Below are positions 1 to 32,455 of a DNA stretch of 33,228 nucleotides, one piece after another (within the stretch, counting starts at the first letter, position 1; each line of letters starts with the position of its first letter). The stretch comes from a virus, in IMG/VR virus record IMGVR_UViG_3300030090_001436, positions 1 to 33,228 of that record. The stretch is one strand, 5' to 3'. Below the pieces are notes generated by a model. That model was given only the letters and a program-made list of their open reading frames with translations, did no database searches and was not told the DNA's origin. Position numbers and translations under genes: made by a program.

Positions 1-234
1 CAGTATTGTCAGATCCAAGACGAAAACTTTCCTCTTGCTATAACGCGCTTTACTTCGTTTGACATAGACGACAAGCCGCTGAGCGTTGAACAAGTCACTT
101 ACGAATCAAACATGGATTACATGGAGCGACAAATTATCAACGCATTGCGCTGCAATGTTGAGGTGAGCATCCTTACGGCAACTCCAATTCATGAATTTAA
201 AAGGCTCTATCACATTTTTAAAAGTGACAAATGA
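1..234 (+). CDS. Unknown protein, C-terminal part only (cut by window edge)
   Basis: Frame 1 is open from the first base to a TGA at 232-234 and gives 77 residues, so the start lies outside the window. The peptide is soluble-looking and mixed in charge, with no membrane segment or motif I recognise. Its stop overlaps the next ATG in an ATGA arrangement, which supports both reading frames as a translationally coupled pair. No function can be assigned. Confidence 0.6.
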   Translation, partial: QYCQIQDENFPLAITRFTSFDIDDKPLSVEQVTYESNMDYMERQIINALRCNVEVSILTATPIHEFKRLYHIFKSDK

Positions 235-404
235 GCATACAAATCTTTCGGCACAATGATGAATGGATTGTGCTAACCGAGTCTTACGCGCTAACGTTCC
301 ACCAAACGCTTGCTGGGGCGATGAAGCATGCCGCAACCGAAGTCGGGGCGTCAGATCGTCATGGAACGCCTAAACAAAGCAATACAGCTTTCAACGACTG
401 GTGA
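231..404 (+). CDS. Small unknown protein (57 aa)
   Basis: The ORF starts at the ATG overlapping the previous stop (ATGA), the classic sign of translational coupling in compact phage genomes. It begins MSIQIFRHNDEWIV and looks like a small globular protein, with hydrophobic residues alternating through the first 30 positions and a polar C-terminus. No known family is recognised. Its last 77 bases overlap the ORF at 328-537 in another frame, so one of the two may be spurious. I favour this one because of the start overlap. Confidence 0.5.
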   Translation: MSIQIFRHNDEWIVLTESYALTFHQTLAGAMKHAATEVGASDRHGTPKQSNTAFNDW

Positions 405-7682: not shown

Positions 7683-10600
7683 TTACCGCGCACGGGCGGT
7701 TTTGAAGGGATGCTCAGCAAATGCGGCGTAGATATATGTGTCGCCACTTCGATTGTGCAACTGTCTGGTGTCACCCAACTGAAAACCATTGCTTAGTGCA
7801 AACACAGGTTGCGCAAAACTACCCTCTGCATCATTGGTGTTGGGAGCTAGATACGCATTAAAATCACTGCGCAAATCATCGTAAATAACCCAATTTTCTG
7901 CACGCGAGGTATTACGTAGCAGGACAAATTTAGGACGCATTCCGGTATACACGAATGTACCGTCAGCACTTGAATTGCCTTGATAGCTGCCAAAGGCACT
8001 GTATTGATTGACAGGTGCCCAGCAATATGCAATGTAATCTTTATTGCCGTCATTAACAGCGTTATCTTGGCCTAGACTAAAAACCGAAGATGTTGGCTCA
8101 GTATTGTTAAAGGCACCAGATCCTGTCGTTTCAGCATTACTTGTATCTAGGCGCAAATACTTGGTTCCCCCACTCGTTGAGTGATAAACGTACCAAGTAA
8201 ACGCATCGTCTCTGTTTTTGATTAGAATCCATCCGGGTTTTGCGGACAATCCATGCCCTACGGTATCTCCCGCATTGTTATCACCGTTATAGCTAACAAT
8301 CGAGAAACCAGCAGACGGATTAGCGCGGACGCTAGAAGTGATACTGCCGTCAGTGTTGCTGACCGTTGACGTTCCAGCATCCCAAGTCCATGCCGCGTAC
8401 GTGTTTGAGCTTTGATTTACATGCGAATCTGTACCTAACGTAAAACCTGTGGAGCCAAAAGTGACACCGCTGGTCGAAGCTTCTGCATAGTTTTGGCTGG
8501 GATAAAGTGCCTTATTGTCGCCACGGACAGTGTCGTGAATCATGTGATCTCTACTTCCTGAGCGCTGTTTCATCCATGCCAGATCAGGGCTGAAATTCAA
8601 ACTTCCAACTGTTTGAGAAGAGCCTGTGCCGCTATATAAAACCACATCAAACGCCGTCGAACCATCGGCAATCGTTGGGTCGGCAAGATTCTGCGTGCAG
8701 AGACTTACATAGCCAGTTGGTGGCGTGTACGCAAATGGCCTAGAGCCATAATTTACTTCTGCGGTAGTGCTTGAATGATAAACACTCACGCCAAAAAAGT
8801 AGGTGCCACTCGGTAAACTGCTTGTTGCTGTTCCTTGACTTGTGTTGTTTTTGTAAAACGTTAGCGTTCCATTGTCTAAATCAGCAGCTACGCCGATTAT
8901 GTCATTTGTAGCGTACCCAGAGCCTCCATAAGACGAGTTTGAATCGTTCTGATAAAACCCTCCCTCTTCTTTCCAACCGAAACCATTGCTGCCGTTGATT
9001 TGACCAATGTATCTGCTTGGTTCGCCCTTCTGGTCAATGCCAATAAACATTCCTTCATTGGCATTTGCAGTAGGCTTGACCTCAAAATACCATTTGCCAG
9101 ACGAGGCTCCAATCGTTGAAAAAGCAGACCTATAAGCATTGTTAGTCTTGGCTATCTGTAAATTTCCATTTGACAAAGTAATGTCGGAATGCAAGTTAAT
9201 TGGGTTTAGCGTGGCGTAGTTCCCGCCATTGTTGCCAGAAGCTGCCGTGTAATTTGTCGGCGTGTCGATCAGGCTGTCGATATTAGGTGCAGCGGTATCA
9301 GCAACGCCAGCATCAACTAAGAGTACGCCGTCAACCTCTACACCACCCAGGTAGGGACCGACTAAGCTCGAATTGGTAAGTTGGATGCTAGTTAACTGTC
9401 CACCAAGCGTGGCAGCAGTTAAGGTGACAGGAACATTGTAATTATTTGTTCCGGTAATGTAACTGCCATTAACGCGAGTGCCATACGAACTTCCGTTTGT
9501 TGGGTTGTAAACATACAGAGTAACTGAAGTATTAACTGTAATAGCACTTGATGGCGTCCAAGTCATCGTTGCATCGGAAGCACCAAAAGTCACATCAGAG
9601 CTTGTTGTGATAACACCGTCAAAGGCGTTACCCCATACATAATTAGAATTGTATGCAGTACCAGAACCTAAAGAACTCCAGGTTTGGCTTTGATCCCAAG
9701 CAGAGCCAGCGGCCTGAAGGTTATTAACCGTCCAAGCTGTTGTTACTACAACCGTTCCATCAACTTCAATGGCAGAAGCTCGGACGATATTGGCATTAGA
9801 TGTATTTTCAAATTTAATGCTTGTGATTGAGCCTGTATGGCTTAATGTCACCCAAGCATTTGCACTGCTTTGACCGCCAGTAGCCTTTGAAACGCCATTG
9901 ACATATATCGTTGAGTAGTAACCGACGTAAACACGTAAAGAAGAGGAAGCTGAATATGAGCCGTTAGGCGTCCAAACTAAATCAGAGTTAGTAGAAGAAC
10001 TATCGTACCCTCCATACACAATTGTGCTAGTAGATCCATCAAAAAGATTTTTTGCAGGGTAACTACTTACTGAATAAAAATTAGTCGCTTGAGTCGTGGT
10101 TAAAGCACCAACGGTAGGTGTGTAATCATCAGCAACGGCACTATTTTTTCCAAGCGCAGCGTTGCTGCTGTTGTCAGCGAACTTTAGGTAAAAACTGTTG
10201 TCTGTAACAGTTACGTCTGAATCAACCAAAAGTTTTCCATCAACAACAATGCCTGCCAACGCAGTCCAATCTGATCCGCTTGAATTAACAGTGATTGCGG
10301 TAATCGACGCCCCAAAAGTTGTGTAAGGGTTGCTTACAACTGTTGAAGCGATATTTGTATTATCGACTGGTGTAACCGCTACTGAGCCATTGCTACACGT
10401 AACAGTGATGTTTCCTGAAGAGCCAGTATTGTGCCAAGTGTAAAGCTCAACAGTGCTAGAAGCAGTAAGAGTAATAGCAGCAGGAAGCGTCAAAGTTGCC
10501 GATCCAGGGTAATAGCCCCACAGCTTTCCTGTGCCAAAACTATCGCCAGGAATACCTACATTATTAAACGCTTTAGCTACTTCATAGCCACTGCCTGGTG

Positions 10601-11312
10601 TCGTTCCGCTGTATGTACCACTGCTCCAATCTTGACTTTGATCAACTAAAGGACCATACGTTCCAGCGAACTCCTTGGGCTGCCAGACCGAGTTTGAATC
10701 AAACTCACCGAAGTCAGTCGGCGCAAGTGCTTGACCGTCAACAAAATTTATCTCAGCTAAATAGCCGTCGAAAGGATCAGGCCCAAAGTCAGCAGAATAC
10801 TTTCCAATCGCATGAGGCGCGGCTGCGTTAATACCGCCTTCGTAATTTTGTGTCGGGTAAGTTGCTGATGAAAAACTTGTAACTTGTGCGCCGTTTATGT
10901 ATAACTTAACCCTGTCAGATGCTGTGCTTTGAGTTGTATCAACTGCCCAAACGATGTGTTGCCATGCACTGCAATCACGAAAAACCGCGTCAGTCGCAAG
11001 TTTCCATTGCATAGCGTTTGAACTGTAAGTTTCAAGTTCAATCGTATTATCTGCCATAAAATTTATATATGTATGATGCGTTGAAGTTGCGTTGCTGCCT
11101 CCGCTAAATATGTTTTGCCGCGTACCTAAATTGCCACGTTTTACCCAACCGCTCCAGGTGAAAGTGCGACGGTTGCCAGCAGACGACGGGGTGCGATTCA
11201 AATAGGCCGAATCATCGTCATTAAACCGCAAGCTGCGGTCAATCTGGTAGCCAGCAACAGCTCCAGCCGCCGCTCCAATGAACAACGGGCTTGCAGCTCC
11301 AGGGATACTCAT
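7683..11312 (-). CDS. Large tail fibre/adhesin: LamG-like, three repeats, SPRY-like
   Basis: This 1209-residue protein has a short N-terminal hydrophobic anchor-like stretch, then a concanavalin/LamG-like domain at about 44-215 (RTFTWSGWVKRGNL, WQHIVWAVDTT, GYLAEINFVDGQALAPTDF). Three divergent beta modules follow at about 290-365, 410-520 and 570-670, each ending in a version of 'VDGxLLVD'. A SPRY-like domain spans about 710-860 (GKWYFEVKPT, GIDQKGEPSRYIGQ, GVAADLDNGTLTFYKN). The C-terminus is another beta-rich module (WTWDAGTSTVSNTDGSI). It starts in an ATGA overlap with the preceding fibre gene. Host recognition through glycan binding is the likely role. Confidence 0.8.
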   Translation of the reverse strand: MSIPGAASPLFIGAAAGAVAGYQIDRSLRFNDDDSAYLNRTPSSAGNRRTFTWSGWVKRGNLGTRQNIFSGGSNATSTHHTYINFMADNTIELETYSSNAMQWKLATDAVFRDCSAWQHIVWAVDTTQSTASDRVKLYINGAQVTSFSSATYPTQNYEGGINAAAPHAIGKYSADFGPDPFDGYLAEINFVDGQALAPTDFGEFDSNSVWQPKEFAGTYGPLVDQSQDWSSGTYSGTTPGSGYEVAKAFNNVGIPGDSFGTGKLWGYYPGSATLTLPAAITLTASSTVELYTWHNTGSSGNITVTCSNGSVAVTPVDNTNIASTVVSNPYTTFGASITAITVNSSGSDWTALAGIVVDGKLLVDSDVTVTDNSFYLKFADNSSNAALGKNSAVADDYTPTVGALTTTQATNFYSVSSYPAKNLFDGSTSTIVYGGYDSSSTNSDLVWTPNGSYSASSSLRVYVGYYSTIYVNGVSKATGGQSSANAWVTLSHTGSITSIKFENTSNANIVRASAIEVDGTVVVTTAWTVNNLQAAGSAWDQSQTWSSLGSGTAYNSNYVWGNAFDGVITTSSDVTFGASDATMTWTPSSAITVNTSVTLYVYNPTNGSSYGTRVNGSYITGTNNYNVPVTLTAATLGGQLTSIQLTNSSLVGPYLGGVEVDGVLLVDAGVADTAAPNIDSLIDTPTNYTAASGNNGGNYATLNPINLHSDITLSNGNLQIAKTNNAYRSAFSTIGASSGKWYFEVKPTANANEGMFIGIDQKGEPSRYIGQINGSNGFGWKEEGGFYQNDSNSSYGGSGYATNDIIGVAADLDNGTLTFYKNNTSQGTATSSLPSGTYFFGVSVYHSSTTAEVNYGSRPFAYTPPTGYVSLCTQNLADPTIADGSTAFDVVLYSGTGSSQTVGSLNFSPDLAWMKQRSGSRDHMIHDTVRGDNKALYPSQNYAEASTSGVTFGSTGFTLGTDSHVNQSSNTYAAWTWDAGTSTVSNTDGSITSSVRANPSAGFSIVSYNGDNNAGDTVGHGLSAKPGWILIKNRDDAFTWYVYHSTSGGTKYLRLDTSNAETTGSGAFNNTEPTSSVFSLGQDNAVNDGNKDYIAYCWAPVNQYSAFGSYQGNSSADGTFVYTGMRPKFVLLRNTSRAENWVIYDDLRSDFNAYLAPNTNDAEGSFAQPVFALSNGFQLGDTRQLHNRSGDTYIYAAFAEHPFKTARAR

Positions 11313-13749: not shown

Positions 13750-14619
13750 TTAAATGTCCTGCTGTAACAGCAGTTTAGCGCCGCTGTCTTGATCCAAGCG
13801 TATTTCACCAGAGTCCTCTTGCAAGAGCGCATCCGGCACTACGGTCTTGATCCTTAGCCTTAGCTCACCTGTTGTTATGAAATCAGCGGTGATTTGCACC
13901 GTGCTGTCAGGCGAAAACTGGATAGCGGCTGCCGTGATAATCCCTTCAACGCGCCACCAAACTTCATCATCAGCACGCTCTGTAACGCCGCTTGGATTAT
14001 ATCCGTTCTTTTTAATGTAGAAACGTCCAATAAAATTACTGCCGACCTTTGTGCGATGCGCTAACTCGTATAAATACATCGGCAATTCCTGAGTGCTGTT
14101 GCCGGTGTATTCCCAAAAAGCACTAATTCGACCAGAACCAGAAATTAAACTGTTAACTCTAGTTCTATACTCATCAGATAATACTGTTGTATCAACCGTC
14201 TCGCGCTCAGTATTGATCTCAAAGCTGCTAACCTGCGCCAAAAGACGCGGCGCAGCAGATTCGACAATTACCTCAATCGGTATTGAATTTCCTGGCGTTG
14301 CAAGAGCAACTGCATTCGTCTTGCCGCCACTGACCGCATGGGCAAAACTGTTGTAAAGCCTGATGCCGTCTAGCTCGTCAACGTAAATAAATTTTTTAAC
14401 GCTTGAATCTGAATAACTATTTATGAAATCAAGAGCGCTACCGTCTGTGCTCGTAATTTCAATTTGATCGCCTGTCACTAGCTGACCGTGCTCAAAATCA
14501 AAACTAAAACGCTTTTCGGTAGCATTAACGTCAGCAACGTCAATCGTTGACCGCAACGTGCCACCATTGAAGACACGCCTCAATTCAATTTCACCGTGCG
14601 TACCAAGATATACAGTCAT
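13750..14619 (-). CDS. Tail protein with C-terminal tail-tube-like domain (289 aa)
   Basis: Residues 1-130 form a beta-rich N-terminal domain (YLGTHGEIELRRVFNGGTLR). Residues 130-265 look like the neighbouring tube-like protein: a strand (LLAQVSSFEINTE), TVDTTVLSDEYRTRVNSLIS, then GSGRISAFWEY, and a long strand pair before the end (VQITADFITTGELRLRI). The 'SLISGSG' stretch is identical to one in the protein at 29929-30351. It starts in an ATGA overlap with 14616-15050. A ring or adapter in the distal tail is likely. Confidence 0.6.
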   Translation of the reverse strand: MTVYLGTHGEIELRRVFNGGTLRSTIDVADVNATEKRFSFDFEHGQLVTGDQIEITSTDGSALDFINSYSDSSVKKFIYVDELDGIRLYNSFAHAVSGGKTNAVALATPGNSIPIEVIVESAAPRLLAQVSSFEINTERETVDTTVLSDEYRTRVNSLISGSGRISAFWEYTGNSTQELPMYLYELAHRTKVGSNFIGRFYIKKNGYNPSGVTERADDEVWWRVEGIITAAAIQFSPDSTVQITADFITTGELRLRIKTVVPDALLQEDSGEIRLDQDSGAKLLLQQDI

Positions 14620-15050
14620 GAGATCGTTACAGTAGACAATACACCTGTGCCTTGGAACGCAATCTCAGCACGAACGATGTCGCCAGTTGCCGCTCCAATC
14701 GAAGCGCTAGTGATATAAGCAGTCAGCTTGATGTCGTTGTTGTCCGTTCCATCAATCCAACGGAAGGTCAGCTCAACCGTGTCGTTGCTGCTAACGCCTT
14801 CATTACCGGTCTTATATAGCTTGTTGAGAATGTTGGTGGTGTTAAATGTGCCATCGTCTTCCTTGTAGTACAACAACGTTGCACTGCCGCTATAGCCGAC
14901 AACACCAGGAACATAAACACGAATATGCTCGTTTAGCGTTGTCGTCTCAAGCGTTTCTAAGCTTGACGACAGCTGAAAATTAACGACCTTGGCAAGGGTC
15001 GTTCCACCGAGCTGTAATGCGCCATCCCTGCCGGTGTAGACCTTTGCCAT
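14616..15050 (-). CDS. Tail-tube-like protein, distal paralogue (144 aa)
   Basis: The sequence follows the tail-tube layout: an N-terminal GRDGALQLGG, a strand ending VNFQLSSS, the loop LETTTLNEHIRVYVPGVVGY, then SGSATLLYYKEDDG, and C-terminal strands IKLTAYITSASIGAATGDIV. The same order is seen in 29929-30351. It sits among distal tail genes rather than before the tape measure, so it may form a ring at the tail end instead of the tube. Start and stop codons overlap both neighbours. Confidence 0.6.
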   Translation of the reverse strand: MAKVYTGRDGALQLGGTTLAKVVNFQLSSSLETLETTTLNEHIRVYVPGVVGYSGSATLLYYKEDDGTFNTTNILNKLYKTGNEGVSSNDTVELTFRWIDGTDNNDIKLTAYITSASIGAATGDIVRAEIAFQGTGVLSTVTIS

Positions 15051-15823
15051 CAGATCACGCCAATCAGATTCACTGTAACAGTGCTAATCCCAGGCCGCAC
15101 CTGGACAACCTGCGGTGGACCTTCATATCTGTACTGAGCTTGGCTCCCAGAAGTAGAAGCAGTTGTCGTCGCAGCAGGCGTATTTGCTTGGCCCCCCATC
15201 CCAGAGTGAACAGAGCAGTAGTAGTACAGCGTTGGCGCACCAGTTGCCACTTGAATCCTTGTGTATGAACCAGCTTGCCCAGGCGTTCCAAATGTCGTCA
15301 CCCCAGTCGTGTACTCCGTTCCACTGTTATGAGTGCCGTCGCTAGTCGCAGATAAACGCAGTGGATGGCCCGCGTTTGATGCGTTCTGCTGGCTGAACAA
15401 ATAGATCGTGCCTTCAGTCAGCGTTAAGGTCTGCGCGTTATCGCTTATACCGTCATCAGCAGTTATACCGCTAAAGCGATAGTAATTGCTGCCACCATCA
15501 GCGACCACAGTAACGTTGTAAGTCACAGTAGGAATCTCTGTTTCTGCTGGCTTTAGCGCATCATTGTTTCCGTCCCAACCGCCTAAAGCCTGATTCGGCA
15601 AGTTGAACGTTTGGAACGTGCCTTGCACTTCGTCGTAATGGTCTAGAAAAAGCTCAGCGTTTGGATCGCCAATGTTGGCGTAAGACAGGCTGAGCTTGAC
15701 GTCGGTTCGTTCACTGCCATATAAAATTCGCGTTTCTTGGCCGTTCTGAGCCTTAAAGGTTTTGACCGGATAGCTTCCAGGGTCATAGCTACGGCTAGAA
15801 GGTTTGAGAATCGGATAAGCCAT
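15050..15823 (-). CDS. Tail-tip protein with inserted cupredoxin-like domain (257 aa)
   Basis: Residues 1-90 (FKAQNGQETRILYGSERT, FLDHYDEVQGTFQTFNLP) and the last 30 (YRYEGPPQVVQVRPGISTVT) look like the two halves of a distal-tail (gpM/DUF2460-like) protein. Between them, about residues 100-215, lies a beta domain with the complete ligand pattern of a type-1 copper protein: His153 in AGHPLRL, then Cys203, His206 and Met209 in YYYCSVHSGMGG. The C-x2-H-x2-M spacing is the same as in amicyanin. Ser/Thr/Ala linkers flank the insert. Copper binding, electron transfer or simply a stable fold are all possible; metal binding is inferred, not shown. Confidence 0.72.
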   Translation of the reverse strand: MAYPILKPSSRSYDPGSYPVKTFKAQNGQETRILYGSERTDVKLSLSYANIGDPNAELFLDHYDEVQGTFQTFNLPNQALGGWDGNNDALKPAETEIPTVTYNVTVVADGGSNYYRFSGITADDGISDNAQTLTLTEGTIYLFSQQNASNAGHPLRLSATSDGTHNSGTEYTTGVTTFGTPGQAGSYTRIQVATGAPTLYYYCSVHSGMGGQANTPAATTTASTSGSQAQYRYEGPPQVVQVRPGISTVTVNLIGVI

Positions 15824-18800
15824 TAGGAAGGACGAACCGTGATGACTGAATCGCTTGCAATAAGCTTTGCAAGCTCGCTGACTCCATCATCATCGCAAGG
15901 ATGCTCTGAAGCAACAATGTCCACAGTCCCTTCCTGAGAGAACGTCAACTGCTCCACAACGTAAACGTTTTGCGAAACGCTTTCATTCCTGACCGTAAAA
16001 ACAGAGTCATGGAAGGTCGAGTCAGACACGATATTGTTGCTGACCTCCATCAGCGCTTCCTCTATATCCTGTGAATCTGTTTTAAAGAAAGAAACCGGAT
16101 ATTGGCCATCAGGCATGTCTCTGACACTTGTTACCGCTCCAGTGCTGCTGACCGTGCCGTTGTTAGCGCTGGAATAGGGGCTAGAGGTTGTTATCACCTT
16201 TATGTAAGACCCCGCACGCAAGCTCAAGCCGTCCACAGTCGTTGAAAAACTGATGGTGTGCGAAACCAACTTGCGAATGCCCAAGAAATACTTGGCGACT
16301 TGAATGGCATGGCTTTCTGAAGTGCAGAACTGGGTCAAGTCGAACTGCTCTTGCGGTAGAAGCTCAATGCCGTGCTCCTCAAACTGTCCTGGCAGCTTAA
16401 CCTCAACAACTTTTTCTTCCGGGAACTTGTTCTTGCTTTCTTTCCTGTAACGCATGACTGCCTTAAAAGGCCTGCGCTCTTCACTTCTCAAGTATTCAAG
16501 CTTGTAACTGTCTTCAAGAATGTTCCCAGCGGTAAATAGTTGCTCAATAGGTACTGGACCAATGTTGATCTGCCCGCTTTCTTCTAACACAGGAATTGCA
16601 GGCTTTAATGAAAATTTGCCGTCCATCATCACAAAGTTGCACAGGAAGTAAGGCGCTGTGTCCGTAATGTATTGGCGCAAATTAGTCCTATCCCCAAGCA
16701 CGCCGTTGAAAAAGAGCTTTTGTGCGTGCAGGAAGCGAGAGGTGCTTACAAAATCACTAACTTCTAAAAGAGGTGTATTGCTTTCAGTCATCTTTAACAA
16801 CGCCCCAGCTCCCCCCATGTCATTGGTCAGGAGATAGAACACTAAGTCGGTAAACAGATTGCTAGGCCCAGAGGCTTTACCGTTCGCGCTAAGACTGCCC
16901 AAATTGTAAACAGAAAGATCAGGGTGTAATCGCTTTGTGTGCAGACCGCTGCCGAGCCAGCAACGCATTTGGTCAAGGCTTGTAAAATTACGGCTTGCTT
17001 TTAAAGACAAACCGGCAGTAGTCAGATTGTTGTATATGGGCACAAGTGCATTAGGCACGACTTCGTTTACATAAACGATGCTGTGCTCAGGCTCTGATTC
17101 ATTTGATTTCTGAATAAGCCCCCTGTAGAGGCTCATGTCAGCGTACTGACTTTGTGACTCAAAAAAAGTGTCTCCATCAAAAATAGTTTGAGGATCTGTC
17201 CTGCCAATATCACCAATGACGTATCTAAAACCAACCTGCAAATAAGAAGTGATATAAGGGTTGTCGGCTGAAACACTCACGAGATCGTCATAGGTGTCGC
17301 CTTCGTTCCAGTTGTCTGTCGTGTCGGAATCCTGGACAACAGGTATAGGAGTCTCAGGATGATTCCATCCTTTGCTTTCACCGCTGAAATGATTAACCTG
17401 CTCCTTGACGGTTGCGGTCATCTTGACCTTGATTTTTCTAGGACCATTCGGATAGTTCCGAATAATTGTCTTAGACTCTCCTATGCCTAGATCTGCCGCG
17501 TGCCCAAACAATTCATAATAATAGGCTTGCGTTCGACCAACATCAAACGCACGAGTATCATGGTCCAAGACTCTGTATCGTTGACCTGAAAAAGTCATCG
17601 TCACTCCACTTGGATGGTTGGGCACAAATGGGTTAGAGCTTGGGTAGTTACTAGAAGTTCCTGATGTTGCACCTGCTCCACGCTTAAATTCAACATCTTC
17701 ACCCTTTGAATATCCATCTGAACTGCCGACAAGCTCACAGCTCACAAAAGCCCAAGTAAAGTTAATACCATTCTGTCGTGCGTAGTGACCGTCAGGCAGC
17801 CTTGTCTTTCGCACAGTCCATTTCACGGCCATCCACTTACGAGCGCTAAATTTTTCTCTGGTCTGCAGGCTTTTAACGCCGCCTTCGTTGACTGGGTCAT
17901 CATCACAGCTGCCAAAAATTGTATGGAAAAATGCTCCATTTTTTCCTGTAGTAATAGCATCACTATTTGATATGTTGGCTTCTTTTTCGATAGAAATTGC
18001 AACCCTAATGCTTCCATCTTGGTCTTGAGGAAGAACAATGTTGCGTTCGACTGACTGGGGAATGCTTCTGCTGCCTTGATCAGTAACTGTTTTTGGCTTG
18101 CGGATAAATTCTTTATTTAATCTAATCTGAGATTTAGTTGTTCTCGCCCCAGCAACCGCAATTACAAACCTGCCTAGCCCTGGAACGTCAGAAGAAATGC
18201 GCAACAGGTCTTTCTTTTCTTCTGAGACGGAAGCCGAAAGCCTGACAACAGGTGTTTCGTCGCCAAGAGCACGAAGCTCAGAAGCTGGAATGCCAACAAA
18301 CTTATACTCAAGCTCTGTGGGCGGCAGATCTTGTGGATGGGTAAAACGAATGAAATTGTACTGATCAACAGGCTTGCTTCCTGTAACTACAAAATAAATA
18401 TCTATCCTTTGAAATCTAAACGCATCACCGTTAGCGTCTAGTCCAGCTTGACGCACAAACACTTGGAAGACAGAAGATCTTTTTATAGTTCCTGTGTACG
18501 TTCCAGAGCGTACATTCACTTCTTCATCTTCGAATTCGTCTAATTCGTCTGGAGTAGGAACAGCATTGAACGAGCACAAACCATTAAGGCGCTGGAACAC
18601 TTTGCTGCGTATTCCAACCTCAGTTACGACAGCAGGCCTGTTGTTTCGCACCAAGCCGGTTGCAACACTTGTAAGAGGGAAGAAAGCGGCACCAACACCT
18701 CCATCATCTTTAATAAAATCTTGCGCAGGTTTTACAACACGATCAAAACTGACTAAGCCAACTTTTCTTTGGCGCGACTCGTCAGAATCAACGCATATGA

Positions 18801-20235
18801 ATGTGATTTGCTGGCTCTGATTACCTTCTGGATCATACTGCTCTTTTCTTCTTTTAATAACTTTCCAAAGAGTGTTGCCGATAGCAAACCTTTCTCCAAG
18901 CTGCATTGCATCATCAGCAGCAATCTGTTCTGCCTCTACAGTCGAGTTAATGTCATCGACATTCTCGCCGCCCCGGTTATTGCTGCGCTGGTACTTACGT
19001 TCCGGAATCTCGCTTGGATCAATATCGAAGAGTAGCTTGTCTCCTGCCCTTACATCTACAACAGCACTTAGCTGCCCAGAAAAATCATCATCAACAGTGA
19101 TTCGGCTGCCATTTGCTTTGGTTAGCTCAACAAAACCCATGCGCGGGCTGTACTGACGGCCCTCTCCCTCTTGGTCCTGCTTGCGCACCTTTTTAAGCAG
19201 GCTTTCTTTGCCTATGTCAATGTTGAGATCCTTGTCACCAACAATTTTCATGCGGCGTAACGTAAGCGCATGAGCCTGACTGTTTTCGGTGCCGTCAATG
19301 ATAGACACTGTTTCGTAATTCACCCTATAGCCATTGCCATTTGGAATCGCTCCAAACATCCCAAACCGTGTGTTGTTTGCAGGTGAATAGGCATGACAAA
19401 AGTCTGTAGTCAGATCAGCAACATTGCTGGGACACAAAAACATATCGTCGTCTCTACCAAAGTTTTGTGTAGGGTTGCCAGTGTCAGGCCCGCCCTGCGT
19501 TCCAAATGCAAGATCCTTGCCACGAATACGAGTGCTGCCAGAGGTGGATGTATCGTTCTTCCAATAAAAAGCAAAAAAGTCTTCATGAACAACATCCAAA
19601 GCATTGTTGCCAAGAAAAATTCCTTCAAGATCTGGTTTTTCAATGCCATCAGGCGATATACCATCAGCGAAGCCCTGCTCGCCCACCACAAAAACTAATT
19701 TTGCAGATTGCTGCGTTCCATGGCTAAACATCCGTGACCACACCAGCTTTGGTGTGACAAGCATTCCGCCAATGTTGCTGGCTTCGTCGTAAAGCCCAAA
19801 AATAATTGGAACGGGTGAACCGTAATCTGCTAGCTCATTAAGACTGTCAAAGCCTCGGCTTTGCGTAAAACGGTTGCCAGCGTTTGTGCTGCCAAGGTCC
19901 AGCTGTGACCGTTTTGATGCCTCTGGCATCTTGGGCTTGGGTGTTAGCAGGTAAGCAACACCAGTCAGCACAAGGCTAATGGCAAGGTTGATCAGAATAG
20001 GAACGTAGACAGACTCAGCCGCTTGAATATCAGGGACATGGGCGTACTCAGCCGGACGCACCACACCCCTGCGTCGCACCTCAGCAGCAAACTTGCAATA
20101 CTCCTCTTCCGTTATCCCAATCGTCTTAATTAGCTCTCTTTCATACGGAAGCAGTGGTACGTCGTAAACAGACGGGCCGAAGACCACTGAACCTTCTTCG
20201 ACATTCGATTGACGTACAAGATTCCCCTCTGCCAT
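15823..20235 (-). CDS. Tail-tip host-specificity protein, gpJ-like with gpI-like N-terminus
   Basis: This 1470-residue protein begins with an ordered region (VYDVPLLPYERELIKTIG) and a hydrophobic segment at about 76-98 (VYVPILINLAISLVLTGVAYLL) ending LTPKPKMPE, the pattern typical of lambda gpI-like tail proteins. The rest resembles gpJ: a GSPVPIIFGLYDEASNIGG stretch near 140, long beta domains, and a hub-like region near 1100-1400 (AQKLFFNGVLGDRTNLRQYI; PGQFEEHGIELLPQEQFD). It would form the central tail hub and contact the host surface. Its first 106 bases overlap the NlpC-like gene in another frame. Confidence 0.8.
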   Translation of the reverse strand: MAEGNLVRQSNVEEGSVVFGPSVYDVPLLPYERELIKTIGITEEEYCKFAAEVRRRGVVRPAEYAHVPDIQAAESVYVPILINLAISLVLTGVAYLLTPKPKMPEASKRSQLDLGSTNAGNRFTQSRGFDSLNELADYGSPVPIIFGLYDEASNIGGMLVTPKLVWSRMFSHGTQQSAKLVFVVGEQGFADGISPDGIEKPDLEGIFLGNNALDVVHEDFFAFYWKNDTSTSGSTRIRGKDLAFGTQGGPDTGNPTQNFGRDDDMFLCPSNVADLTTDFCHAYSPANNTRFGMFGAIPNGNGYRVNYETVSIIDGTENSQAHALTLRRMKIVGDKDLNIDIGKESLLKKVRKQDQEGEGRQYSPRMGFVELTKANGSRITVDDDFSGQLSAVVDVRAGDKLLFDIDPSEIPERKYQRSNNRGGENVDDINSTVEAEQIAADDAMQLGERFAIGNTLWKVIKRRKEQYDPEGNQSQQITFICVDSDESRQRKVGLVSFDRVVKPAQDFIKDDGGVGAAFFPLTSVATGLVRNNRPAVVTEVGIRSKVFQRLNGLCSFNAVPTPDELDEFEDEEVNVRSGTYTGTIKRSSVFQVFVRQAGLDANGDAFRFQRIDIYFVVTGSKPVDQYNFIRFTHPQDLPPTELEYKFVGIPASELRALGDETPVVRLSASVSEEKKDLLRISSDVPGLGRFVIAVAGARTTKSQIRLNKEFIRKPKTVTDQGSRSIPQSVERNIVLPQDQDGSIRVAISIEKEANISNSDAITTGKNGAFFHTIFGSCDDDPVNEGGVKSLQTREKFSARKWMAVKWTVRKTRLPDGHYARQNGINFTWAFVSCELVGSSDGYSKGEDVEFKRGAGATSGTSSNYPSSNPFVPNHPSGVTMTFSGQRYRVLDHDTRAFDVGRTQAYYYELFGHAADLGIGESKTIIRNYPNGPRKIKVKMTATVKEQVNHFSGESKGWNHPETPIPVVQDSDTTDNWNEGDTYDDLVSVSADNPYITSYLQVGFRYVIGDIGRTDPQTIFDGDTFFESQSQYADMSLYRGLIQKSNESEPEHSIVYVNEVVPNALVPIYNNLTTAGLSLKASRNFTSLDQMRCWLGSGLHTKRLHPDLSVYNLGSLSANGKASGPSNLFTDLVFYLLTNDMGGAGALLKMTESNTPLLEVSDFVSTSRFLHAQKLFFNGVLGDRTNLRQYITDTAPYFLCNFVMMDGKFSLKPAIPVLEESGQINIGPVPIEQLFTAGNILEDSYKLEYLRSEERRPFKAVMRYRKESKNKFPEEKVVEVKLPGQFEEHGIELLPQEQFDLTQFCTSESHAIQVAKYFLGIRKLVSHTISFSTTVDGLSLRAGSYIKVITTSSPYSSANNGTVSSTGAVTSVRDMPDGQYPVSFFKTDSQDIEEALMEVSNNIVSDSTFHDSVFTVRNESVSQNVYVVEQLTFSQEGTVDIVASEHPCDDDGVSELAKLIASDSVITVRPS

Positions 20236-20498
20236 GTGACTGCAAATGCCCAGGATTGCTGCGGTAGCAGCAGAATATCCCCATCATACTGAGGCCGATC
20301 TACACGGGAACCCCAACGCATAAGGTCGCGACAGATCTCCCACTTACTGGCCTCGTACCAAGATTGCTTGAACGGTGGCGCGTCAATACCCATCCGTTCC
20401 AATGCCTGATAACACATGTGGATGCAGTCGATATGACCGTCACTGCCGTCAGCGCCGAAGCGATACGGCATTCCAATCAGATCACTGCAGTCGGACAC
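20130..20498 (-). CDS. NlpC/P60-like tail-tip protein (gpK-like)
   Basis: The segment GMPYRFGADGSDGHIDCIHM matches the NlpC/P60 entry motif with its catalytic Cys. Downstream GDILLLPQQSWAFAVTWQRG matches the 'GDl..f' strand, but the expected catalytic His after it is replaced by Ala/Phe/Trp. Activity is therefore doubtful unless another His serves. I chose the GTG at 20496-20498, giving a 17-base overlap with the upstream gene; a TTG at 20522 would add eight residues. Gene order (after gpL-like, before gpJ-like) matches lambda gpK, which degrades peptidoglycan during entry or helps tip assembly. Confidence 0.65.
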   Translation of the reverse strand: MSDCSDLIGMPYRFGADGSDGHIDCIHMCYQALERMGIDAPPFKQSWYEASKWEICRDLMRWGSRVDRPQYDGDILLLPQQSWAFAVTWQRGILYVNRMSKKVQWSSARLFTTYHCFRMKES

Positions 20499-20988
20499 TG
20501 TTGCTAATCGGCAAGTTGCCAACCATGCGTTGCGTCAATGAACGCCTAGGCACGTCCGTCCCAACAGCATCCAAAACCGAACTCAGCTCTATGGTCAAAG
20601 AGACGTTGTCCCATTGACCGCCAGTCGCTTGGCCGGTATAGGTGTGGATAACAGTCGCACCTGGGCTTGTAATTTTTTGGTCCCCATCAGCGGTTGAATT
20701 ATCAATAATTAACACCTGTACGAACATCACGTAGCTGCCTTCAATCGCTGCGACAGCCCATGATCGAGTCAAATCATTATTGGGAAAGACAAGCGAAGCA
20801 TCCATGCCGTCGCCAGTGCGGTTGACGGTGACACCAGAAAATCCGAACGGCACGAACTGAAAATCCGCGTTAGTACCATCAGCTCCCGTATGCCTCATCT
20901 CTTTGCCAATAAAAAAGTTTTGAAACCGAAAGTCACGGCTTCCGTTAATCACAATCTGCAAAGCATGTCCTAAAGCAAACTGCGTCAC
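20482..20988 (-). CDS. Minor tail protein, gpL/DUF1833-like position (168 aa)
   Basis: The protein is beta-rich (HALQIVINGSRDFRFQNFFIG; GATVIHTYTGQATGGQWDNV) and ends in VPRRSLTQRMVGNLPIS, an ending common to minor tail proteins that sit between the tape measure and the NlpC-like protein. It lacks the Cys cluster that binds iron-sulfur in lambda gpL. The ATG overlaps the tape-measure stop by four bases. The call rests mainly on gene order, with modest sequence resemblance. Confidence 0.55.
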   Translation of the reverse strand: MTQFALGHALQIVINGSRDFRFQNFFIGKEMRHTGADGTNADFQFVPFGFSGVTVNRTGDGMDASLVFPNNDLTRSWAVAAIEGSYVMFVQVLIIDNSTADGDQKITSPGATVIHTYTGQATGGQWDNVSLTIELSSVLDAVGTDVPRRSLTQRMVGNLPISNSVRLQ

Positions 20989-23624
20989 ATTCCGACCCTC
21001 TTACGAGTGCTGCTGCTCATTTGCAACCGCTTCAATGTCTGCTGCTCACCCTGTTTAGCACCCTGATTGGCAGCTTGCCTCATGCCAGCCTGGAACTGAT
21101 CAGCTGTCACGTAATCAACGCTGTTAATACGCTCCACCGTGTAACGAACGTCGATTGGTGCGGCAACTGCAGCTCCGCCACCTTCGCTCATAGCTCCACT
21201 GCCACCACCGTTTTCAGGAATAACAGCAGAACCGCGAGCACCACGCGAGTAACGCGCCATGCTTTCACGCATCTTCGACTCGGGAATGATGTACTCAGAC
21301 TCACCACCTTCTCCAACAAGAGCGCGAGTTGGGCCTGAAACGTAACCGCCTTCAGCGTAAGCGTTAAGAGGAATTCGACCGCCACCAACCGCAGAGCCTC
21401 CAAGACCAGGAACAACAACATCCGACCCAAACGGATTGCCTTGGCTGCCTGCAGGACTTGGAGAGAATCCAAAAGCAAATGCTTTGGCAATGCCAATCGA
21501 GATGTACGTCGCAATCATTTGCTTCGCAGCGTCCATCAACAGAGATGCAATGTCTCGCAAGAAATCAGCAAACGCTTCTTTTGCAGTCTTCGTGCCCTCA
21601 ACAACTGCAACTAAATTATTGAACAAGGAGTCCGTTACCGGAACGGCAATTGCCATTGCTTCGTTAAAACGTGCTTGCGCTAACGCAGCTTGATCTATAG
21701 CTGGTTGATACTCTTTGTATCGAGCAATGTTATTTTCTAGCTCAACCGCTTTGTCTACTAAAGCCAGTCTTGCTTTGTCGTCCAAGTCTGTCCCAAACTC
21801 AATGTTTTTATATACATCGTCTAACTCTTTATTCATTATTTTAAGCGTTTCGGCAAACTTTAAATTCTGTTCTGACTCAAGCTTGCGACTGCCGCCAAAG
21901 TATGGATCCATCAGGAAATCTTGATTCCCAAAAGGACTGGTTGCACGAATAGCCTGTTGAGCCGCAATTTCTGCAGTCATGTCTGCCATTGAAATTGCCT
22001 GATTCTTAGTGGCTCGCTCCAGCTCAAATGCTGCTTGCGCTTGACGCGCCAGAATTATTGCATTTTCTTTTGCCGCCCGAGCTTCGAACAATGCTGCAGC
22101 AGCAACGTCCCTTTTGACAATCAATCGAGCCTTTTCTGACTCATTTGTTTCTGCAATTACATTCAAACTAGCCTTGTCAAGTGCAAGCTGGGCTCTGTCA
22201 ACCTCAACAGCAGCTTGAACGACCTGAAGCTCTCCTCTAATTAAATTTAATCTGTTTGCTTCTATTTGAGCTTCTATCTGAGCAAGGCCTACGGTTTGAC
22301 TTCGGATGCTGTTTATAAGCCCTTGAACTTGAAGCTGACGCTCCGTTAGCTGTTTTGCTTGATTTTGTTTTTCAAGTGTCTTCAATGTAGCTTGTGGGGT
22401 ATTGGCAAACGGGCCTTTTCTATTTTGAAAGTCAGCAGTTGCATCACTTCGAGTTAAAAAACCCAAGGTAGCCCTTGTTGCACGAGCCAAAAATCCTTGA
22501 TCCTGCTTGATTCCAATAATCAGCTTTGTCAACATTTGCACGCCATTAACAAGCCCTGGAGCGGCAAACGCAACGCCCAGAAGCTTAAGCTCCTTAAAAG
22601 CGTTACTTAAAGCGTCAGTTCCTTCTTTTAACTTGTCTACGTCTTGTAGGCCTAAAGCGCCAAGTTGATCGTTTAACTCCTGAACTGCCAACGCCCCAGC
22701 GACAGAATCAAGTCCTAATTCCTGTAAATCACCAATCAAACCTTTAGTCTTGCTGCCTGCTAACGGCAAAACATCGACTAATTGCTGGATGCTCTTGGTT
22801 GGGTTTTCAAGCGCTTTGCCAAGCTCAATAGCGGACTGAGTTATCGCGTCAAATGGTTTTCCAAGAACTGATCCAAGAATTCCACCAGCAAAAGAGGCTT
22901 GTTGACCGCCAATAGCACCAGCCAACCCACCTCCAAACAGGCCGCCAACAGCAGAAAAGCTAGGACCACCAAAAAGCAATGGAAAACCGCCACCAAGGAT
23001 TGCTCCTTGAGCAGCATTACTTAAAGCATTTCCTCTAGAAGCCTGCCTGCGTTTTTCAGCCTTTGCCTGTCTTTCAAGGGCTTTAGCCTCTCGTTCAGCC
23101 GCCTTTGCATTTTTTTCTCTTACACGGGCTTCTTCTTCTTTCAGTTTCTTGCGAGTCCTGAGGTTTCTAAGCAAATTAGCGCGTCGTTCCAGTTGAGCTT
23201 CACGTTCTTCTACGCTTTGCATTCCCAAAAATGCACGCCTTATATTTTCTTCTGCCCTAGCAAGCTTGTTCGCCTCTCGTTCCGCAACAACAGTTGCTTC
23301 GACAAAATTCTTAAACGACAGGCTCGCTGTATTACTAGAAGCGGATAACGCCTTGAAAGCAGACGTTAAGTCAGCGACTCCAGCTTGTGTTTTTTTGCCA
23401 GAAGATCCGGTTTGTACTAACTTCTTCGCAAGATCATTTAATCTTTTAGTAACCGTACCAATTTGATCAGCTTCCTTTCCTCTTCCGGGCAGCTTTCCTG
23501 CTATATCTACTTCTTTCCCAACTTTTTTTAGAGCAGCCTCAAGCTGCCCAACAGTCCTAATTGCTCGACGGAACTTATCTTCACCGCGCAGTTGCAGGTC
23601 TAGATTGATTCCAAAACTAGACAC
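20985..23624 (-). CDS. Tape measure protein (879 aa)
   Basis: The start is a GTG at 23622-23624. The order is typical: a helical N-terminus, a strongly charged coiled coil at about 120-200 (AAEREAKALERQAKAEKRRQ), a Gly/Ala-rich hydrophobic region at about 205-250 (GAILGGGFPLLFGGPSFSAV), long helical segments at 430-560, and a C-terminal RALVGEGGESEYIIPESKM motif common near tape-measure ends. It sets tail length and is ejected ahead of DNA. Using the general rule of about 0.15 nm per residue, a tail near 130 nm is predicted. Confidence 0.88.
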   Translation of the reverse strand: MSSFGINLDLQLRGEDKFRRAIRTVGQLEAALKKVGKEVDIAGKLPGRGKEADQIGTVTKRLNDLAKKLVQTGSSGKKTQAGVADLTSAFKALSASSNTASLSFKNFVEATVVAEREANKLARAEENIRRAFLGMQSVEEREAQLERRANLLRNLRTRKKLKEEEARVREKNAKAAEREAKALERQAKAEKRRQASRGNALSNAAQGAILGGGFPLLFGGPSFSAVGGLFGGGLAGAIGGQQASFAGGILGSVLGKPFDAITQSAIELGKALENPTKSIQQLVDVLPLAGSKTKGLIGDLQELGLDSVAGALAVQELNDQLGALGLQDVDKLKEGTDALSNAFKELKLLGVAFAAPGLVNGVQMLTKLIIGIKQDQGFLARATRATLGFLTRSDATADFQNRKGPFANTPQATLKTLEKQNQAKQLTERQLQVQGLINSIRSQTVGLAQIEAQIEANRLNLIRGELQVVQAAVEVDRAQLALDKASLNVIAETNESEKARLIVKRDVAAAALFEARAAKENAIILARQAQAAFELERATKNQAISMADMTAEIAAQQAIRATSPFGNQDFLMDPYFGGSRKLESEQNLKFAETLKIMNKELDDVYKNIEFGTDLDDKARLALVDKAVELENNIARYKEYQPAIDQAALAQARFNEAMAIAVPVTDSLFNNLVAVVEGTKTAKEAFADFLRDIASLLMDAAKQMIATYISIGIAKAFAFGFSPSPAGSQGNPFGSDVVVPGLGGSAVGGGRIPLNAYAEGGYVSGPTRALVGEGGESEYIIPESKMRESMARYSRGARGSAVIPENGGGSGAMSEGGGAAVAAPIDVRYTVERINSVDYVTADQFQAGMRQAANQGAKQGEQQTLKRLQMSSSTRKRVGM

Positions 23625-26131: not shown

Positions 26132-27214
26132 TCAGGACTTGAGGCCGTTATCCAGAGGAGTGTTGACGAAGATCTCAACCATAGGAATGAGGTCAATGTC
26201 GTAGGTGGCAGACCAGTTGCTGCCGGTACGCAGGTTTGCGTTGGTCGGGTTGTCAGAAGCGGAACCCCACTTAGTACCCATCACGTGATAGGCAGAGTGG
26301 TAATCCACAGACAGCACGTCCTGCTTGGACAGCACGTTACGGTCAGCTTCAATCCGAAGATCCTGCTGCACACCCTCAAGGATGGTGCCGGACTTCATCA
26401 TGTAGCAACGGAACTCCTGACGGTTGCCAGTTGTGGTCGGGTCATTGATGTTGACTTGAGAGTCAACGATGACACGGCAACCAGCAAACTCGCCAACTTC
26501 ACGAGCACCGACGCCAACACCGCCACCACCCCAAGTCACTGCGCCAGAAGCAGCAAGTGCAGAGGTAGAGAAGGTCAGCAGGCCCACCTGATACAGGTAG
26601 TAAGCAACAGACGGGTGAACAATCAGAAGATCCATTTCCTCACCACGCTCACCCAGTTTGGAGCGAGCTTCTGCGACAGTTGCAGCGGTCAGGTAGTTGG
26701 CTTCGCCGGTAGAACCAGAACCACCCAGTTGCTTTTCAAGGCGGTGGCCATTGAGAGCAGTGTGGAACAGGCCAGTCAGTTGCTCAAACAGACGAGTGCT
26801 GTTCAGCTTGTTAATGGCATCAGCCAGCTGGTTGCGGATGTGAAGCATTGGATCTTCACCAGCAGCCAAGACTGCAATGTCATCCACGGCGTAGGCAAAG
26901 CCACGGTGAACGATGGATGCAATCTGGGTTCCAGTGCCGATTTTCTGAGGAGTCAGATAACCAGCGCCACTGGTGCCCCAAGTAGCGGTGCCATCAAAAA
27001 TCTCTTCTGTAGGAGACACAGGGTTGAACTCAGGAACCTGAATTCGCGTGCCACCTTCACGGGCGTCGAGCAGTGCATTACGCACCACAGCGCCAGATTT
27101 GATGAACTGGCTGCGTTCTTTGATTGCCTCAGCCACGTAGGTGCTGAGATTATTCCTTTTTACGATGTCCGCCAGAAGGACACCGCCGGAATAATTCTGA
27201 AATGGTGCGGCCAT
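26132..27214 (-). CDS. Major capsid protein, HK97-fold (360 aa)
   Basis: The sequence has the hallmarks of a P22/HK97-type coat protein without delta-domain: an N-terminal arm, an E-loop-like region (LLDAREGGTRIQVPEFNPVS; EEIFDGTATWGTSGAGYLTP), the spine-helix region (GEDPMLHIRNQLADAINKLN), and P-domain/A-domain segments MDLLIVHPSVAYYLYQVGLL and EFAGCRVIVDSQVNIND. It follows a scaffold gene and precedes the adaptor. No maturation protease is encoded nearby, so the coat may mature without cleavage. Two small hairpins lie just upstream. The stop-free antisense frame here is a composition effect. Confidence 0.88.
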   Translation of the reverse strand: MAAPFQNYSGGVLLADIVKRNNLSTYVAEAIKERSQFIKSGAVVRNALLDAREGGTRIQVPEFNPVSPTEEIFDGTATWGTSGAGYLTPQKIGTGTQIASIVHRGFAYAVDDIAVLAAGEDPMLHIRNQLADAINKLNSTRLFEQLTGLFHTALNGHRLEKQLGGSGSTGEANYLTAATVAEARSKLGERGEEMDLLIVHPSVAYYLYQVGLLTFSTSALAASGAVTWGGGGVGVGAREVGEFAGCRVIVDSQVNINDPTTTGNRQEFRCYMMKSGTILEGVQQDLRIEADRNVLSKQDVLSVDYHSAYHVMGTKWGSASDNPTNANLRTGSNWSATYDIDLIPMVEIFVNTPLDNGLKS

Positions 27215-28184: not shown

Positions 28185-29636
28185 CTACTGTAACTCTGGC
28201 GCAGAATCTGGCGACTCAGCAGCTGTTGGCAGGATTTCACCCTGAACCAGCATGTCGCGGAACTCCTCGCGATCAATCACGTTGTCTTCAAACAACTGAG
28301 CCATCGCTGCAATGTCTTGGCCAATCAGACGTTGCAAGTCAAAGTCACGGCTGATCTTTACCTCAGGCGGTTCAAGACCCAAGTAATCAGCAGCCATGTC
28401 ATAAGCCTTTTGCAAGCCAGACTCCAGATCCATTGAGACCATCGACAACATCGAGTTGGTGTCAATACGATCTAAACGACGCGCATCAGCAGATTCAGCA
28501 ACAAACTTTTGCTGGCTCAGCGTACTAATGCCGAGTGTCGCCATCTGTTGCTGCAGCTCCTGGATCTCAGCCGATTGCGCCTCAAACGCGCTTGCCGCAG
28601 GTTCCACGTAATAGACCTTGTTACCCGGCTGGGTCGCCATCGCGTAATTAACGCTGATAGCCATGTCTTTCGTCTGATCGTCCCAACCCTCAAGGACGAG
28701 CATCGGTTGCGAAGCGATGTGAAGACTGTGGATAAGATCCGCTTGCCGTTGATAGTGGGCCAAATTGAGATGAGCAATGTCCAGTAGCGGTGGCTTACTG
28801 GTCAACGTATCGGTTTTATTTGCATAAACCGTTACCAAGGGGATCTGCCCAAGCGAAAAATCGCCTGACTCAACCAGCTCGTACTGCGCTGTAGCGTCGG
28901 ATTGATTGAATGCAGAGGGGTATGGGTTCTGCCCTTGCATCTCTTTCTTTTGCTCTTCTTGCCTAAAGACGCGATAACGACCTGGCTCGATGACACGTAC
29001 TTGGTCATAAACTTTTTCTCCGAACTCGCCGTCAGGAACTACAGCTTTTTCCCCAATCCGAACTTGTGTAAGGTTTCCGTAATTGGTTTCGCGGTCCAGT
29101 CGCCAACCGTACACCTGAGTTGGATCCACCTCAATCCAATAGGGCCGACGATTAAGAGCACGCTCCTCTGCAAGACTTCTTGCGTCCGTAGGCGCAGGAA
29201 AATCAACCAACGTGTGGCAGTGCCCATACGTCAGGGCACAAATCAAGAGTCGTCGAGCGTACTCATCTAAATCTGAGCCACACCCGTCAACGTCCTTGTT
29301 GAAAACATCTGTCCAGTAAGGATCACCCTGGACGCTAATTGGTTTTCGCAGAATCAACCCGGCTGCTGCACGAAGTAACCGCTGTGTATAAGGCGTAAAA
29401 ACAGAGCGATTAACCCGCGCTAAATACGCGCTGTAGTCCTCACGGGGTTCTAAAGGCAGAAATGCCTCGCAGTTGTCACGTAGATACTCCGTACCGTTTG
29501 TAACGGCTTTCATGATCTCCCAGCCCTTCATCTGGTCGATCACGGCCCGTGTTCGCACGAACGGACTATCAACGCTTCCCATGTAGGAAGAGCTGACAAG
29601 ATGCGTTCTAACGAGACCGGGAACGGAGTAAGTCAT
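28185..29636 (-). CDS. Portal protein (DUF4055-like, 483 aa)
   Basis: The 483-residue protein shows the pattern of DUF4055 portals: FVRTRAVIDQMKGWEIMKAV near the N-terminus, a YLARVNRSVFTPYTQRLLRA helix, GLILRKPISVQGDPYW, GHCHTLVDFPAPTDARSLAE, then PYWIEVDPTQVYGWRLDRET. The stem helix and C-terminal crown region include LQQQMATLGISTLSQ and FEDNVIDREEFRDMLVQGEI. It forms the dodecameric DNA entry channel and docks the terminase. The order portal, small basic protein, scaffold, coat is standard. Confidence 0.86.
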   Translation of the reverse strand: MTYSVPGLVRTHLVSSSYMGSVDSPFVRTRAVIDQMKGWEIMKAVTNGTEYLRDNCEAFLPLEPREDYSAYLARVNRSVFTPYTQRLLRAAAGLILRKPISVQGDPYWTDVFNKDVDGCGSDLDEYARRLLICALTYGHCHTLVDFPAPTDARSLAEERALNRRPYWIEVDPTQVYGWRLDRETNYGNLTQVRIGEKAVVPDGEFGEKVYDQVRVIEPGRYRVFRQEEQKKEMQGQNPYPSAFNQSDATAQYELVESGDFSLGQIPLVTVYANKTDTLTSKPPLLDIAHLNLAHYQRQADLIHSLHIASQPMLVLEGWDDQTKDMAISVNYAMATQPGNKVYYVEPAASAFEAQSAEIQELQQQMATLGISTLSQQKFVAESADARRLDRIDTNSMLSMVSMDLESGLQKAYDMAADYLGLEPPEVKISRDFDLQRLIGQDIAAMAQLFEDNVIDREEFRDMLVQGEILPTAAESPDSAPELQ

Positions 29637-29928: not shown

Positions 29929-30351
29929 TTATTGAAGGTTAGAAGTGATGGTGCCGCTGGTAACGAAGTTGCAGGTAGCGACAACCAAATCGCCAACAGT
30001 AGAGCTGATGTCCATGCTGGTGATAATCCCTGCAAAGCTCACAGCATCAGAACCAGTGGTGGTGCCAGTCGTAAACAGCTCAAACGTGGCATCAGCAGTG
30101 TCGTTAGCCGTAACTACATCTTCGATAAACGCTGCTTGACCCGTTGCATCAGGGTCGTAAACCAGCTCAACAGTGCCAGAACCTGAAATCAGACTGCCAA
30201 CAAATGCACGGAAGGTGTCACCATGATCGGTAACGTCCAACGTGTCTTTGGTGATGTTCAGCGTCCAGCTGCGAGTGCCAACAATGGTTGCGTTGGAAGA
30301 ACCAGCAGCATCAAACTGGACCGCACCTTGCTCTCCGCGAAGGATGGCCAT
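29929..30351 (-). CDS. Probable major tail tube protein (140 aa)
   Basis: The layout matches small siphovirus tube proteins: GEQGAVQFDAAGSSNATIVG, a strand ending RSWTLNITKDTLDVTDHGD, then TFRAFVGSLISGSGTVELVY, and C-terminal strands VSFAGIITSMDISSTVGDLV followed by CNFVTSG. It is the best candidate for the tube because no such gene lies between the tail terminator and the chaperone, where it is normally found. It instead sits before the portal with its own promoter-like sequence at 30370-30398. The tail-tube fold is inferred from pattern; the position is unusual. Confidence 0.62.
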   Translation of the reverse strand: MAILRGEQGAVQFDAAGSSNATIVGTRSWTLNITKDTLDVTDHGDTFRAFVGSLISGSGTVELVYDPDATGQAAFIEDVVTANDTADATFELFTTGTTTGSDAVSFAGIITSMDISSTVGDLVVATCNFVTSGTITSNLQ

Positions 30352-32353: not shown

Positions 32354-32455
32354 GCCTATTACATTACACAGGTTTTCAACCCCTACCCCCCCGTCAGACC
32401 GTTCCACAACGCAGCGCAGCAAGTTATTATCCAAAGAAACAGGGTCGAGACAGTA

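Follow-up and report, generated by a model that had tools for sequence, protein, structure and literature searches.

Few metal sites are known in phage tails, and most of them are iron sites. The HxH iron-binding motifs of T4 gp37 and the Ferrojan horse hypothesis are discussed in PMC11705849, and a cyanophage auxiliary metabolic gene for a copper protein, petE (plastocyanin), is listed in PMC3037559. Among tail proteins, T5 pb9 is arranged as a ring of six at the tip of the tail (PMC10038345). The domain that we describe here invites comparison with each of these. Like the HxH motifs of T4-type fibres it places metal ligands in the tail devices of marine phages, but its fold and its ligands are different and its metal is probably copper. 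Like petE it is a predicted copper protein encoded by cyanophages, whereas petE is a free, soluble electron carrier and the module is a domain of a virion protein. The outer parts of the protein that holds it align with pb9 of the T5 pb9/Dit family, but its insert is a cupredoxin, and the hub, modelled with low confidence, aligns modestly. The locus thus presents a known fold in a new place, a cupredoxin domain within phage tail proteins; a search of the open-access literature found no report of a cupredoxin in virion proteins, nor of blue copper or copper binding in phage tails. Our preferred reading, which we hold with moderate confidence, is that residues 98-216 or thereabouts form a mobile cupredoxin module with an amicyanin-type C-x2-H-x2-M loop and a predicted type-1 copper, carried on tail devices, with attachment as its most probable role.

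The window, by which we mean the whole 33,228-nucleotide stretch of viral DNA that was analysed, holds a siphophage-like structural operon with terminase, portal, major capsid and head-tail connectors, and with tail tube-like and fibre proteins after the module gene. On the minus strand the tape measure gene (20985-23624) is followed by 20482-20988, by 15823-20235 and then by the module gene, which therefore occupies a Dit-like position downstream of the tape measure. The features to which we refer are as follows.

15050..15823, minus strand: distal-tail-like protein with cupredoxin module, 257 aa, P0001 (open reading frame; phrog_15525; pb9 alignment of the hub)
15545..15823, minus strand: N-terminal tail hub part, residues 1-93 (kept in nine insert-free relatives; pb9 alignment)
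15176..15532, minus strand: cupredoxin-like module, residues 98-216 (AF2 model; 50 of 50 listed rows cupredoxin; found in unrelated proteins)
15365..15367, minus strand: His153, first predicted Cu ligand, in a GHP motif (in register with the plastocyanin His ligand)
15215..15217, minus strand: Cys203, predicted thiolate Cu ligand (sole Cys of the protein)
15206..15208, minus strand: His206, second predicted His Cu ligand (column conservation)
15197..15199, minus strand: Met209, predicted axial Cu ligand (column conservation)
15137..15175, minus strand: Thr/Ser/Ala-rich linker, residues 217-229 (sequence; pLDDT <50 at 220-227 in the model)
15053..15136, minus strand: C-terminal tail hub part, residues 230-257 (same block in insert-free relatives)
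20985..23624, minus strand: tape measure protein, encoded upstream in this tail operon (phrog_1538, 3e-7)
15823..20235, minus strand: large tail protein, 1470 aa, with a J-like C-terminal region, directly upstream of the module gene (phrog_27845)
7683..11312, minus strand: tail fibre or virion structural protein (phrog_19943, 7e-189)
31100-32485: terminase
28185-29636: portal
26132-27214: major capsid

No near relatives of the first 25 kb of the window were found among deposited phages; the hub of P0001 is closest to the Synechococcus siphophages S-CBS1, S-CBS3 and S-LBS1. A separate feature of the operon is that three further minus-strand regions (29929-30351, 14616-15050 and 13750-14619) match the major tail protein families phrog_10528 and phrog_1407. 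One lies between terminase and portal and two adjoin the module gene, and they are possibly duplicated tail tube proteins.

An earlier note on this DNA, made from the letters alone, had proposed that the protein is split, with its two ends belonging to one distal tail protein and a beta domain lying between them. This is borne out by nine tail-protein relatives that do not have the domain (loci L051, L062, L063, L069, L071, L072, L076, L355 and L376), and by the alignment of the ends and of the middle to different folds. In the insert-free relatives the GNxDAxxA block is joined straight to NYRYEGPPQV and then to ...STVTVNLIGVL, and the existence of such relatives makes the domain a true insert. 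The split itself stands, and its limits were adjusted, from about 100-215 for the beta domain and 228-257 for the C-terminal part, to a module at about 98-216, a Thr/Ser-rich linker at 217-229 and a C-terminal hub part at about 230-257. Residues 2-106 of P0001 match the minor tail protein family phrog_15525 (4.8e-19). The full-length AF2 model has a pLDDT of 73, with low confidence in the hub and pLDDT below 50 at residues 220-227, and its residues 95-222, approximately, align to cupredoxins. Taken jointly, the two ends of this low-confidence hub align to 7qg9_V (Z 7.5, rmsd 2.7, 84 residues, model 1..257 on chain 1..204), a score tied with many other rows; we read this chain as T5 pb9 because it has 204 residues and because of the title of the entry. 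The same low-confidence hub matches 8hqz_H with Z 7.4 (model 1..257, the two chains covering 82-84 residues). For a domain inserted into a tail-tip protein the support is good as far as the insert goes; for the putative Dit/pb9 identity of the hub it is moderate. No scars of an insertion and no repeats were found on either side of the module. A match to Pfam CBM_4_9 (E 5e-4, below the cut-off) was rejected, as it straddles the junction of hub and module and the fold is that of a cupredoxin.

To model the module separately we used an alignment of 71 module sequences, in which the added relatives were less than 66% identical to each other. The resulting AF2 model is an all-beta sandwich with pLDDT 89.1 and pTM 0.84, so that the cupredoxin-like beta domain described in the earlier note was recovered with confidence; the model superposes on cupredoxins with a best Z of 9.1, and all 50 of the 50 VIA matches listed are cupredoxin folds. 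The best of these is 2dv6_A, the N-terminal cupredoxin domain of Hyphomicrobium denitrificans nitrite reductase (rmsd 3.0 over 107 residues, 21% identity), and rusticyanin follows at Z 7.7, in a Z range of 7-9 that is modest. The best Foldseek match in the PDB was also Hyphomicrobium nitrite reductase, with a weak E of 1.1e-3 and a probability of 1.00. The nearest solved cupredoxins (2dv6, rusticyanin 1rcy and plastocyanin) share with the module the beta sandwich, the mid-domain His and the C-terminal C-x2-H-x2-M. They differ in that their identity to it is only about 19-21%, and in that the module sits inside phage tail proteins and is no free electron carrier. From the cupredoxin superposition, together with the in-register profile alignments described below, we infer that the four ligands would lie near one another. 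Three predicted beta-sandwich proteins of pithovirus- and marseillevirus-like giant viruses in BFVD (A0A481Z6J5, A0A481YVH3 and A0A481YXP1) also match the module model, at E 1e-5 to 5e-5.

Sequence comparisons place the module in the same superfamily, and outside the families that have been named within it. The 71-sequence profile aligns to plastocyanins at E 0.05-0.1, and each of the four ligands (H, C, H and M) falls on its plastocyanin counterpart; the family profile matches the C-terminal cupredoxin domain of proteins that are multicopper oxidase-like by sequence marks (genome E 3.5e-5); and hhalign against a pseudoazurin/amicyanin set gave E 3e-5 with a probability of 73%. An azurin-type origin was rejected, since hhalign to the azurin set gave nothing (E 0.08), which leaves the pseudoazurin/amicyanin/multicopper oxidase-like proteins as the closer sequence group. 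Pfam Copper-bind (PF00127) does not match the window protein; it matches 7 of the 71 module members, the best at 3.6e-4, and L134, the relative shown with scores, is below its gathering cut-off. The NCBIfam amicyanin model TIGR02657 likewise has no match to the window domain and matches four of the 71 relatives (best E 0.034), and a phmmer search of the PDB with the single window protein gave nothing useful. Each sequence comparison alone is not strong; joined with the fold, they make cupredoxin membership convincing. By fold and profile the module belongs to the cupredoxin superfamily, and by their own models it is outside Pfam Copper-bind and NCBIfam amicyanin. Amicyanin shares with it the C-x2-H-x2-M spacing, but the remaining sequence is unlike. 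The C-terminal (T1) domain of multicopper oxidases shares the HP motif at the first His as well as the profile match, but the module consists of one domain and lacks the HCH and HxH motifs that mark a trinuclear centre.

The earlier note had pointed to similar stretches in marine phage structural proteins, and the module does recur in tail and baseplate families. It was matched in 64 of 50,697 phage records and in none of 72,556 plasmids; cyanophages, pelagiphages, Methylophilales phages and uncultured marine phages are among the matches listed, and at least 588 relatives were confirmed among viral contigs in one scan. When 405 module-bearing ORFs were grouped by their flanks they gave 48 clusters (33 singletons), with contexts that include J-like tail tips, T4-type fibres, baseplate wedges and virion structural proteins. 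A single ORF can hold as many as three copies, and where the module lies within its host protein differs greatly from case to case. One of the module-bearing proteins, Syn1_099, has the annotation "virion structural protein"; proteomics of S-SM1, with orthologues marked, is reported in PMC3037559. In a cluster of 47 ORFs (for example L111, L106, L107, L110, L112, L133 and L136) the phage proteins begin with a zinc-ribbon-like segment, M-A-R-F-A-S-G-R ... S/C-D-R-S/C-G-F-R-Y, and often terminate exactly with the cupredoxin module.

Relatives of the window phage carry the module in the distal tail protein, in another protein or in two proteins, and in some it was not found in the fragment examined. 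In L355 it is absent from the distal tail protein and present in a homologue of the fibre encoded at 7683-11312 of the window; L376 has it in a 286-aa frame, and L040 in two proteins. Seven tail-protein relatives showed no module within the contig fragments examined, from which it seems dispensable. The module is mobile, common to tail fibres, baseplate wedges, tail-tip J proteins, distal tail proteins and the envelope lipoproteins of the SAR86 order, and it is optional within a phage lineage.

His153, Cys203, His206 and Met209, the ligand set named in the earlier note, were found at those residues (codons 15367-15365, 15217-15215, 15208-15206 and 15199-15197). Cys203 is the only Cys of P0001 and Met209 its only Met besides M1, and there are four His in total. 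C-x2-H-x2-M is unique among the approximately 30 genes of the window (9,723 aa), and shuffling of the module residues yields it with a frequency of 0.0002. Because several of our scans for relatives used patterns containing YYYC..H, we judged ligand conservation on a scan by EYTTGVT and on the tblastn set. The former, which is blind to the ligands, searched with residues 170-176 only and gave 78 sequences below 80% identity; the scan peptide itself is to be ignored in the ranking of columns. All four ligands are present in 71 of the 78, Cys, His and Met are lost jointly in the other seven, and partial Cys/His/Met sets do not occur. His153 is present in 74, being lost in four of the seven degenerate members, and among 105 columns His206 ranks 8th and Met209 9th in conservation. 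The earlier note had offered a lack of joint conservation among homologues as grounds for abandoning the site, and this sample speaks the other way. The fold, the ligand set, the insertion into a tail-tip protein and the recurrence in structural proteins of marine phages, all proposed there, are each backed by a test of their own.

Among deposited phages found by tblastn the set is intact in 17 of 22 and degenerate in S-SZBM1, P-RSM6, S-MS29, S-CREM1 and PSS2, the last of which, alone in this set, keeps the aligned Met while the other three ligands are gone. The Met loop also varies in length: besides C-x2-H-x2-M we found C-x2-H-x3-M in P-HM1 gp7 and C-x2-H-x4-M in Sf-CH1b, and the cellular relatives L428 and L436 have Gln at the expected Met position. 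Both of these longer spacings, and the change of Met to Gln, occur in type-1 copper proteins; stellacyanin has Gln as its axial ligand. Conservation of the ligands together with such loop variation would be the pattern expected of a selected metal site, and we consider it quite probable that the module binds copper, as one ion in a predicted type-1 site.

The ligand-less versions bear on a different account, in which the domain is a cupredoxin-fold decoration serving purely for adhesion, as the Ig-like domains of tails do, with inherited ligands and no copper in the virion. We regard this as unlikely. The fold is kept without metal ligands at about five points of a weakly resolved tree, and in isolates as well, so it can be useful without the metal; the module is located in tail and baseplate protein families; and virion proteins are made in the cytosol, which is copper-poor. 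Ligands that had been inherited and were no longer used should, however, be lost one by one, whereas some nine-tenths of the ligand-blind sample keep the full set and no partial Cys/His/Met combinations are seen. The count of about five independent losses is subject to the poor resolution of that tree, and a single origin of the ligand-less versions would also be compatible with it. Sub-families that keep the fold (L361, L396, L346, L331 and L412; L385, L097 and L104) have YYYAEGT or YAEPAVAN in place of YYYCxxHxxM, and these constitute natural negative controls. PSS2 gp080 (L094, 112 aa) is a free-standing degenerate module encoded directly after the tape measure gene.

Cells carry the module as well. 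We found it in single-cell and metagenome-assembled genomes of SAR86, Bacteroidota and SAR116, including 71 of 151 genomes of the SAR86 order; in a draw of 200 genomes from the phylum only two gave a strong match. The proteins of the SAR86 order are often lipoproteins with a lipobox (ACGGGG...) and are sometimes barely more than one module (about 180 aa). Some matches in bacterial assemblies look like phage proteins (L105, L106-L112 and the Pelagibacter fibre-like L116-L118), and in a tree of 73 modules phage and cell rows cluster, with a resolution too poor to give the direction of transfer. Small, near single-module lipoproteins (lipobox ...ACGGGGG) occur at L123, L126, L135, L137, L429, L430, L444 and other SAR86-order loci, and are possibly an unstudied envelope copper protein family of ocean bacteria. 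Two larger architectures were seen in the same order. Lipoproteins of about 570 aa (L446:463-2163, L447 and L138/L424) have a metalloprotease-type segment, AHEYFHVYQN (HExxH-like), followed by a C-terminal cupredoxin module. SAR86 lipoproteins of about 636 aa (L439, L440 and L448), present in many genomes of the order, have a divergent module and then a His-rich C-terminal segment (HEHQFHELPGLTFYMP...YHG).

Relatives in bacterial envelope lipoproteins, where redox partners could exist, would suit a tail whose copper centre swaps electrons with a partner at the host surface or in the periplasm, or brings about oxidation locally, while the phage adsorbs or crosses the wall; so would the complete type-1 ligand set and the fold kinship to electron-transfer cupredoxins. 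We nevertheless find such a tail improbable, as there is no partner and no conserved redox neighbour gene, and as a domain that is missing from some tail-protein relatives and variable in its position within the host protein is easier to reconcile with a module for general display than with a fixed route for electrons. A redox or copper-sensing role of the tail module is speculation. That the ligand set binds another metal, such as Fe or Zn, is very improbable: phage tail metal sites described so far do include iron-binding ones (T4 gp37 HxH and the Ferrojan horse; PMC11705849), but His/Cys/His/Met with such loop lengths is a hallmark of type-1 copper, the closest matches by structure and by profile are copper proteins, and the module is without an HxH motif.

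We return to the preferred reading, that tail devices display a mobile, copper-binding cupredoxin module. As assembly of the tail takes place in the cytosol, the module would probably be made in the apo form and would take up copper later, after lysis or at the host surface. A pb9-like hexameric ring, if formed, would give six copper sites per virion. The role that we propose is that of a stable, surface-exposed accessory domain for host attachment, in which copper would lock or tune the host-contacting loop; a metal-stabilised, surface-exposed attachment module is our best guess as to function. A stronger proposal, that type-1 sites on marine phage tails are loaded with copper whose redox state or delivery acts in host recognition or entry, seems to us unlikely. 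If it were true, the sea would hold a stock of copper bound to phage tails, and the iron "Ferrojan horse" would have a counterpart in copper.

Deposited isolates make the idea of a copper site directly testable with ready-made controls, as intact modules are found in the S-TIM5 group, P-SSM2, Mosig and Baldr, and naturally ligand-less ones in PSS2, P-RSM6 and S-SZBM1. A fold is now assigned to a recurring, previously unannotated block in PHROG tail families 27200, 30742, 693, 677 and 708 and in the SAR86 lipoproteins. The recurrence of the domain suggests that the tails of many ocean viruses may bear copper, and an intact blue-copper site across cyanophages, pelagiphages and Methylophilales phages, shuffled among tail proteins, would add a new class to the metal-bearing parts of virions.
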